Source: Rhizobium sp. CC-YZS058 | Lineage (GTDB): Bacteria > Pseudomonadota > Alphaproteobacteria > Rhizobiales > Rhizobiaceae | Direction of reading: 5' to 3' | Assembly: GCF_034720595.1 (NCBI RefSeq) | Contig: NZ_JAYESJ010000001.1 | Span: 1,638,001 to 1,702,000, forward strand | Length of the DNA: 64,000 bases | Shown: positions 5,979 through 37,319 of the stretch, one piece after another | Layout of the letters: every line of letters starts with the position of its first letter | Numbering within the stretch: the stretch's first letter is position 1 | Program-made: the position numbers and the translations under genes | Notes under the pieces: model-generated | What the model was told of the DNA's origin: nothing | The model's input: the letters and a program-made list of their open reading frames with translations, nothing else | Databases searched by the model: none

Positions 5979-6085
5979 TGCGTCCTCTCCATGCGACCTG
6001 AGGTAGTTGCGCTGGCCTTCGGAGCGCGAATCTGTTCAAAGCGTCCGGCCGGGAACCTCGGGCTCTTCTGCCTCTATCCGATATT

Positions 6086-33379: not shown

Positions 33380-33607
33380 ATGGCAGAACTCAAGACCGGA
33401 TTTACTGGAGCACTCGAGGATCCTGATAGCCTGACGGTCCGCGCCCGTTCTGCGGGACAGGCGATTCGCCGTGAAGCAGGGGCCGTAGCAGCCAGTGCCG
33501 TCGATCGTCCCGCCGGCACGGGCGTGCTTCTTCTGTCTTGCGCTGCGCTGGCATTCCTGGCCGGCTATGCACTTCAGCCAAAGCGCCGTCAGCGACGCCT
33601 TTGGTAA
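33380..33607 (+). CDS. Small membrane-anchored protein of unknown function (75 residues)
   Basis: A 75-residue protein with a soluble N-terminal part (MAELKTGFTGALEDPDSLTV), an alanine-rich helix and a single C-terminal membrane segment (VLLLSCAALAFLAGYAL) followed by a basic tail. This layout resembles small membrane-tethered stress proteins of the ElaB/DUF883 kind, but similarity is not proven. The ATG at 33380 has GGGAGAC at good spacing. Confidence 0.65.
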   Translation: MAELKTGFTGALEDPDSLTVRARSAGQAIRREAGAVAASAVDRPAGTGVLLLSCAALAFLAGYALQPKRRQRRLW

Positions 33608-33639
33608 CGATCTCGCATCCGCAAAAAAACCACTTGTAA

Positions 33640-33780
33640 GTTTTGCAATGCAATATTAGTGTTTTCGCATCGGATCGCTTTCCTCCTCCCAGGCGATCCT
33701 GGATCGAAGGCACTCTCCTCCCTGCCTTTGGTCATTCAGAGCCTGCCGCGCCTCCTCCCCGCGGCAGGCTTTTTCTCTTT
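33640..33780 (+). ncRNA. Cuckoo-type small RNA with CCUCCUCCC loops
   Basis: Two strong hairpins each display CCTCCTCCC in the loop. Hairpin 1: GGATCGC (33672-33678) with GCGATCC (33693-33699), motif at 33682-33690. Hairpin 2: AGCCTGCCGC (33740-33749) with GCGGCAGGCT (33761-33770), motif at 33751-33759, followed by TTTTCTCTTT, so it is also the terminator. A third, near-complete motif CTCCTCCC lies between them (33715-33722). Stem-loops exposing this anti-Shine-Dalgarno sequence define the cuckoo/CcsR-type RNAs of alphaproteobacteria. The 5' end is not defined; CTTGTAA (33633) and the AT-rich stretch after it are promoter candidates. Confidence 0.75.
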
Positions 33781-33920: not shown

Positions 33921-34163
33921 ATGACATCGATCAAATGGGTTGAGCCCGTGTCGGTTGCAGCCGGAGCGCAGGAGATCCGCGTCGTCAGCGGACCTTCGGA
34001 AGCTCTGGCCTGCCTGTCCGAGGCCTGGCCGGACGCGCGGGGTCCGCGCTATGTGGCAGCGCGCAGCATCTGCCGCGCGGCGATCGATGGTCGCAAGCCG
34101 GTCGAGGATGCGCGCAACCTCTTCCTCCTCGCCGCCCACGAGGCCAAGCTCCACGCGCATTGA
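33921..34163 (+). CDS. DUF982 family protein
   Basis: An 80-residue protein of DUF982, a family found mainly in Rhizobiales. The conserved core is visible as RVVSGPSEALACLSEAWP followed by RGPRYVAARSICRAA. The ATG at 33921 has TGGGAGG upstream. Function is unknown. It follows the small RNA by 140 bases. Confidence 0.85.
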   Translation: MTSIKWVEPVSVAAGAQEIRVVSGPSEALACLSEAWPDARGPRYVAARSICRAAIDGRKPVEDARNLFLLAAHEAKLHAH

Positions 34164-36268: not shown

Positions 36269-37099
36269 TCAACGGCTGGCCATTTGCAGCAGCCGGCAGA
36301 GCTTGACGAGTGAAGCATCGTAGCCGCCGGACGAGACGTTTCGGCAGGTCTTGAGAAGCTGCTGGCGCTCCGACTGCGACATGCTGTCGAAGGCATCGAG
36401 TGCCGCGACCTCCCGGATCGCGCGCGGCGGCTTGAAATTGCCGCCGGTATCGCCGACGCTCGGCGTGCCGGGCTTGTCCGGCCTGCCGGGCTTGTCCGGT
36501 CGGGTAGAGGTGCCGCCCGTGTCGGAGCCGCCGATGCCGACATCCACACTGACACCGGTCCCGCCGCCGCCGATCCCCAGCCCGACGCCGGCATCGATGC
36601 CCTTCGAGCCGCCGATGCTGGCGGAGAGGCCGCCGGTCACGCCCTTGCTGCCGCCGACCGAAGCGCCGACGCCCGTCGTGAGTCCGGACGTCCCGCCAAC
36701 CGCGGCGCCGACCCTGGTCGAAACGCCATCCTTCCCGCCGACATCGGCGGAGAGGCCGGCGCGCACGCCGCTCTTGCCGCCGAGGCTCGTGCCGGCACGG
36801 GTGTTCACGCCCTTGCTGCCGCCGATGCTGGCGCCTACGCCGGCACTCAGCCCGGACGAAGGCTTGCTCGAAACATCGGCTCCGACATTGACACCCTTGC
36901 TGCCGCCGACCGAGGCGCCGACTCCAAGGCCCGAGCCGCGGCTCGAACGGCCGACGCCGACGCTGATGCCGTTGCTGCCGCCGAGCGACACGCCCAGGCC
37001 GCGAGACTGCCCGCGGTCCCGGGCATCCGCTGCTGCCGGCAACAGAAGCACCGACGAGATCAGAGCTGCCAGTGTGTAAGTAGCGATACGCGTGTTCAT
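36269..37099 (-). CDS. Secreted glycine-rich repeat protein
   Basis: A 276-residue exported protein with a signal peptide (MNTRIATYTLAALISSVLLLPAAADA). Residues about 35-195 consist of imperfect repeats around GVGASVGGSKGV, about ten units of 11-22 residues. A linker rich in Pro and Asp (TRPDKPGRPDKPGTP) and a C-terminal domain with two cysteines (CRNV and LCRLL) follow. Such glycine-rich repeats suggest a surface or matrix role, but no family is recognised. The start at 37099 is preferred over 37102 because GGAGG is better spaced. Confidence 0.8.
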   Translation of the reverse strand: MNTRIATYTLAALISSVLLLPAAADARDRGQSRGLGVSLGGSNGISVGVGRSSRGSGLGVGASVGGSKGVNVGADVSSKPSSGLSAGVGASIGGSKGVNTRAGTSLGGKSGVRAGLSADVGGKDGVSTRVGAAVGGTSGLTTGVGASVGGSKGVTGGLSASIGGSKGIDAGVGLGIGGGGTGVSVDVGIGGSDTGGTSTRPDKPGRPDKPGTPSVGDTGGNFKPPRAIREVAALDAFDSMSQSERQQLLKTCRNVSSGGYDASLVKLCRLLQMASR

Positions 37100-37319
37100 C
37101 ATGTCCTCCATGTCTTCGTCAGCAGAGAATTTCTGCTGCGAAATCAATCAGAGGCCCTGTTTTTGGTTCGCCGTTTCAACTCTGCGTTCGTCGCCTTTGC
37201 ACAAACAGCGGAAAGGAATGGTTATCAATCACGGGATCGTCGTCGGTTCTGTGCCGAACCGAAACACATGCCTCGGGAGCGGCACGCCTTGTGGTGCCAC
37301 AGGAACGCGCATCGGCAGA

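Follow-up and report, generated by a model that had tools for sequence, protein, structure and literature searches.

Small RNAs with near-identical anti-Shine–Dalgarno (aSD) motifs share their loops within one cell, and the question they raise is what tells the copies apart. The question is posed here by a locus of Rhizobium sp. CC-YZS058, lying within a 64,000-nucleotide stretch of DNA (the window, taken as a whole) between the genes for a small membrane protein and a DUF982 protein. The initial annotation had described a cuckoo-type RNA with two aSD-loop hairpins, unlinked to a DUF1127 gene and preceded by what looked like part of a stress-sigma promoter. The locus is a further copy of a known aSD small-RNA family, and its new part is a dyad in the spacer between the −35 and −10 elements, overlooked in that annotation. 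The features are as follows.

33380..33607, + strand: small membrane protein, 75 aa; membrane nature judged by eye; matched by no Pfam or NCBIfam model
33633..33639, + strand: −35 element with CTTG core; TTG unchanged throughout the 22 aligned loci
33638..33658, + strand: candidate PhaR-type operator from a matrix match; core TGCAATGCA at 33644-33652, in the −35/−10 spacer
33657..33662, + strand: proposed −10 from the alignment; TAGTGT in the window (weak)
33669..33776, + strand: alpha-r14 small RNA, ~108 nt, from Rfam match and fold; start A33669 predicted
33672..33699, + strand: hairpin 1, loop TCCTCCTCCC; predicted fold
33702..33733, + strand: hairpin 2, 11-bp stem, loop CTCTCCTCCC; predicted fold
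33738..33772, + strand: hairpin 3, terminator-like, loop CCTCCTCCC; predicted fold
33921..34163, + strand: DUF982 protein, 80 aa, PF06169; leader GGGAGG

Family, fold and loops of the RNA

The RNA almost certainly belongs to the alpha-r14 family (Rfam RF02344), the family of Sinorhizobium NfeR1, whose transcripts of ~115 nt silence by aSD pairing. The ar14 model matches 33665-33776 at 73.6 bits, passing its gathering cut-off of 58.8 (E = 2.2e-11), and is the sole match above any Rfam gathering score within the 64 kb; at the RNA, the Rfam models for CcsR1 (29.2 against 65.3 bits) and sX13 (RF02232; 35.0 against 50 bits) stay below theirs. An RNA of aSD-loop design was correctly recognised in the initial annotation, but its family is that of alpha-r14/NfeR1 rather than cuckoo/CcsR.

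The predicted fold of 33669-33776 comprises three hairpins, with a minimum free energy of −51.8 kcal/mol (z = −6.8) equalled by none of 200 shuffles. Both hairpins annotated initially are part of this fold, with CCTCCTCCC at 33682-33690 and 33751-33759 exactly as placed, but 33702-33733 adds another; the partial copy noticed between them, CTCCTCCC at 33715-33722, is not loose but sits in the loop of this 11-bp stem. Each predicted loop carries the aSD motif, complete in two (9/9) and 8/9 in the middle one, where CTCTCCTCCC is unique to the window and the other 20 aligned orthologues show CCTCCTCCC. Hairpin 3, already read as doubling as a terminator, has a 13-bp stem that leads into TTTTTCTCTTT (from 33770), which is rich in T and whose first Ts are paired in the model; a Rho-independent terminator is predicted from these two elements.

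Three aSD-loop hairpins are folded by all 21 aligned sequences, namely the window and 20 named orthologues (L105, which contains Ns and has a single aSD motif readable clean, was left out), so that non-conservation of the loops, proposed as grounds for refutation, was not found. Covariation support is modest, since RNAalifold reports two-sided changes for four of the 23 pairs, in an alignment where the window's hairpin 1 is misplaced, and the terminator stem is nearly invariant. The 9-mer CCTCCTCCC is by itself unremarkable, with 70 copies in the genome versus 108 of the reversed spelling.

Orthologous loci and neighbouring genes

The RNA lies 61 bases past the stop codon of the membrane-protein gene, on the same strand, and follows the same gene in all six other same-genus genomes, with genes for a 67-aa protein and an FAA hydrolase beyond. 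Named genomes were scanned with a four-row alignment built from the window's 67-aa protein and three congener forms, which yielded 28 loci from 39 candidate stretches. Membrane protein and aSD RNA occur together in 21 of these: five in the Ferranicluibacter group, including F. rubi and Rhizobium sp. Leaf371, and 16 in what we label the Pararhizobium group, including R. giardinii, P. polonicum and R. herbae. Both are missing from the other seven (L100, L110 and L112-L116); ar14 exceeded its cut-off in 9 of the 15 named loci given to Rfam, the remaining six being L110 and L112-L116. The window is placed in the Ferranicluibacter group because the five named loci share promoter letters with five same-genus genomes.

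Of the two neighbours between which the RNA had been sited, the membrane protein travels with it, but the DUF982 partner is inconstant, being present downstream in the window and 16 of the 21 named RNA-bearing loci and in no other Ferranicluibacter-group locus seen. DUF982 as an obligatory partner was ruled out, as it is missing downstream in six congener loci. Neither these two proteins nor the 67-aa protein was found near other alpha-r14 genes of the family, where 60 of 85 stretches reach only 400-500 bases upstream. Among 297 order-level genomes, the exact promoter-plus-loop pattern matches only that of the window, being too strict to be informative. Elsewhere in the window, a 292-aa open reading frame of GGSKGV-type repeats occupies 36269-37147 on the minus strand.

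Promoter

Across the 22-locus alignment, TTG is followed by 17 bases, a mostly TA-rich hexamer and then the RNA start. The window promoter reads TTGTAA-N17-TAGTGT, from which the start at A33669 is predicted, and that of several Pararhizobium-group loci TTGATT-N17-TATAGT; the named Ferranicluibacter-group loci have TATCTT as their −10 form. By its spacing the promoter looks sigma-70-like, and the RNA very probably has a promoter of its own. The stress-sigma promoter seen initially in CTTGTAA is not supported by spacing and alignment: CTTG does stand at 33633-33636, kept in seven of seven genus loci, but the spacing fits sigma-70.

The spacer dyad as a candidate PhaR/AniA operator

The dyad at 33638-33658 ranks first in the 64 kb for a palindromic 17-site PhaR matrix (21.7 bits; the runner-up, at position 6081, scores 18.8), and matches of 21.7 bits arise at 0.01 per shuffle of the 64 kb (100 shuffles). 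The matrix sites come from promoters marked ‘Efficient’ in gel shift in Table 3 of PMC12542648, a mark that belongs to the promoter and not to the single site; one of four exoH sites and one strand of the rpoE8/acyP pair were chosen, and the training sites score 17.7-30.5 bits. Published consensuses are TGCRNYGCASMA for B. diazoefficiens (PMC6201568) and WNWD2NYGCRNYGCRNH2WNW for S. meliloti (PMC12542648).

The box is retained in all 21 named loci having the RNA (18.0-30.7 bits) and in the six congeners, five at 28.1 bits and one at 26.3, leaving the window as the weakest of its genus. YGC-N3-GCA is present in the spacer of 22 of 22 aligned loci, and 21 of the 22 cores (window counted) fit YGCRNYGCR although their inner letters vary, L111 having one mismatch; the PhaR pattern persists in Pararhizobium-group variants such as TGCGTTGCA and TGCATCGCA, from which GCTGCA has gone. 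On matrix and alignment, a match to the published PhaR consensus stands at a repressing position. The host genome encodes a PhaR-type protein (PF07879). As a positive control, one box was found at each of its two Phasin_2 loci, scoring 24.6 and 23.5 bits at distances of ~70 and ~260 bases from the downstream Pfam match; the best matrix score at its phaR locus is only 8.9.

PhaR/AniA is a PHB-granule-sensing regulator, and mmgR is among the entries of its site table for S. meliloti (PMC12542648 Table 3); the section of that table examined has no alpha-r14 or NfeR1 label. The PhaR boxes of S. meliloti phaP1 and phaP2 flank the −35 (PMC12542648), and AniA represses MmgR, whose regulatory dyad falls inside the −35/−10 region and is discussed for NtrC and AniA jointly (PMC8401924). 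Judged from the sequence, the locus probably encodes an aSD RNA controlled by PHB status via PhaR.

All six congeners (L022, L023, L024, L025, L029 and L036) have a second PhaR-type box, scoring 21.8-26.4 bits, upstream of the membrane-protein gene, at a place where the window scores only 11.0; the small membrane protein may be PHB-linked.

Alternative explanations

An ordinary alpha-r14 gene whose dyad is a LysR-type (LTTR; LsrB/VtlR-like) site as at NfeR1, with PhaR uninvolved, is unlikely, though it has precedent: NfeR1 is activated by LsrB (PMC10746234), and the LsrB box of NfeR1-type promoters, GCAT-N3-TG-N3-T (PMC8844928), has the core TGCANTGCA in common with the PhaR box. The LsrB pattern lies upstream of 22 of 23 non-window-type congener loci, where, because it overlaps the PhaR core, the PhaR reading is ambiguous. 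At the seven window-type genus loci, by contrast, neither strand near the dyad matches the LsrB consensus, and none of these loci has an LsrB motif ahead of its core promoter, the mark of an NfeR1 orthologue in the strict sense. The dyad moreover lies in the core spacer and not at ~−60, and the Pararhizobium-group variants without GCTGCA still hold the PhaR pattern.

It is more improbable still that the promoter is constitutive or stress-sigma (RpoH)-dependent and the dyad merely promoter conservation. The invariant CTTG of the genus would suit such a promoter, the sigma-70 and sigma-H consensuses of S. meliloti overlap (PMC3616915), and the related CcsR1 family is called stress-induced by Rfam; against this, YGC-N3-GCA in every aligned locus has no plain reason in a mere spacer, and the spacing, together with TTGATT-N17-TATAGT in several Pararhizobium-group loci, agrees with sigma-70. 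Least credible of all, and very improbable, is an RNA that is mainly a processed 3′ UTR of the small-membrane-protein gene in the manner of CcsR/DUF1127: strand, the 61-base distance and the linkage in 21 of 28 named loci would accord with it, but the gap holds a conserved promoter-like block.

Alpha-r14 copies in the genome and family

Three loci of the host genome pass the ar14 cut-off, at C1:1582626, C1:1892069 and in the window. The former two are further alpha-r14 copies (C1:1582608-1582732, with four aSD motifs, and C1:1892069-1892194). Three weaker ar14 matches score 41.9, 40.1 and 21.5 bits, the first two being C-rich relatives with altered loops, at C1:219856-219983 and C1:3593521-3593614, which are possibly diverged copies. 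At C2:22073-22117 (minus strand), on a 100-kb contig, an aSD motif pair is seen by pattern only and goes unreported by the ar14 model.

In the family sample, ar14 is found at E 1e-8 or better in 40 of 41 genomes. Of 120 matches, 85 were scored, all among loci L117-L205, leaving out the host's three, internal copies of tandem arrays (including L128, L132, L140 and L145) and some weak or contig-edge matches; L157 was kept although a near neighbour of L156. With DUF1127 identified by sequence pattern and not by profile, 54 of the 85 genes stand alone and 31 are DUF1127-linked. The missing DUF1127 at the window, where the upstream gene has no Pfam match, had been rightly described but is no anomaly, since stand-alone alpha-r14 genes are ordinary.

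A box, defined as a match within 160 bases upstream that scores no less than the weakest training site (17.7 bits), is carried by 23 of 54 stand-alone genes, where shuffles predict 0.08, versus 0 of 31 DUF1127-linked genes (Fisher p = 5e-6, relatedness not modelled). Shuffles overstate the surprise, because 31 of 519 control tiles of the same loci reach 17.7 bits, far above the shuffle rate; the tiles compare with 23 of 85 genes at Fisher p = 5e-8, again with relatedness not modelled, and some of the tiles may contain other regulated promoters. Eight of the 23 boxed genes carry an LsrB box too, and 15 of the 39 stand-alone genes that have none are boxed. Boxed genes occur in 14 of the 28 genera with a scored stand-alone gene. 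A PhaR match is missing in 5 of the 41 family genomes; boxes accompany 22 of 47 genes with PhaR and 1 of 7 without, which is the expected direction and not significant (p = 0.11), the exception being L188, boxed at 20.0 bits in a 96% complete genome (G332) without a PhaR match. At L147 (G316 C34:66108-66232), an alpha-r14 gene that carries both a 24.1-bit box and an LsrB box, the genome's phaR match is ~1 kb away.

It may tentatively be proposed, at somewhat less than even odds, that stand-alone alpha-r14 genes of the Rhizobiaceae have been put under PhaR, apparently repeatedly, such that the state of the carbon stores directly gates a general silencer acting through aSD loops on uptake and nitrogen genes, while DUF1127-linked paralogues heed other signals.

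Proposed mechanism and targets

A PHB-gated model joins the silencing described for NfeR1, which acts on ntrB and transporter mRNAs via redundant aSD loops (PMC10746234), with the repression of MmgR by AniA. The ~108-nt RNA with its three aSD loops would be transcribed from a promoter of its own and terminate at hairpin 3. At low PHB, free PhaR would occupy the spacer dyad and block RNA polymerase; as PHB granules accumulate, PhaR would be drawn onto them and the RNA transcribed, whereupon its loops could mask ribosome-binding sites in many mRNAs, by analogy with the ABC-transporter and ntrB messages of NfeR1, so that uptake would be reduced once stores are full. Transcription, PhaR binding, the direction of control and the targets are the parts of this model that we infer; the analysis itself shows a predicted structure, its conservation, and an operator match together with where that match lies.

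The suggested search of leaders for GGGAGGAGG did not yield a clear target set. The 70 genomic CCTCCTCCC sites comprise 13 within aSD-RNA loci and 57 elsewhere; 55 GGGAGGAGG sites were scored (two fell outside the position filter), of which 12 precede an open reading frame of at least 40 aa by 2-12 bases. Several of these look like chance frames; the plausible ones are limited to two starts, which by eye resemble those of TrbD and of an MFS transporter. The search covered full-complement pairing, and the NfeR1 pairing on ntrB is 8 nt.

Among the titles and abstract openings of matches listed in an open-access library, no literature on an aSD RNA under PhaR was found, and NfeR1 with PhaR gave there a match titled on ectoines. 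If the operator is true, stored carbon would be tied to gene silencing; and if promoters assign the copies to different inputs, with PhaR for storage, LsrB for redox/nitrogen and further ones linked to DUF1127, one output would be served by several sensors.

Comparison with known systems

The sX13 RNA of Xanthomonas has C-rich loops and three hairpins in common with the window RNA. CcsR/cuckoo RNAs of Rhodobacter share CCUCCUCCC loops with it and are processed out of a DUF1127 (ccaF1) transcript; the window has neither a passing CcsR1 score nor an upstream DUF1127 gene. The alpha-r14 RNA NfeR1 of S. meliloti likewise has three aSD-loop hairpins, a terminator hairpin and its own promoter, from which the window differs in its 8/9 middle loop, the absence of the LsrB consensus and the candidate PhaR-type operator in its core promoter. 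MmgR (alpha-r8) of S. meliloti is also a small RNA with a −35/−10 dyad, repressed by AniA/PhaR (PMC8401924, PMC12542648), but is of a different RNA family and is said to reduce phasin levels. PhaR-controlled phasin promoters have the same dyad and, unlike the small RNA here, protein-coding targets; to these promoters may be likened 8 of the 16 Pararhizobium-group loci, which have a weaker second box of 14.4-19.8 bits ~30 bases upstream.
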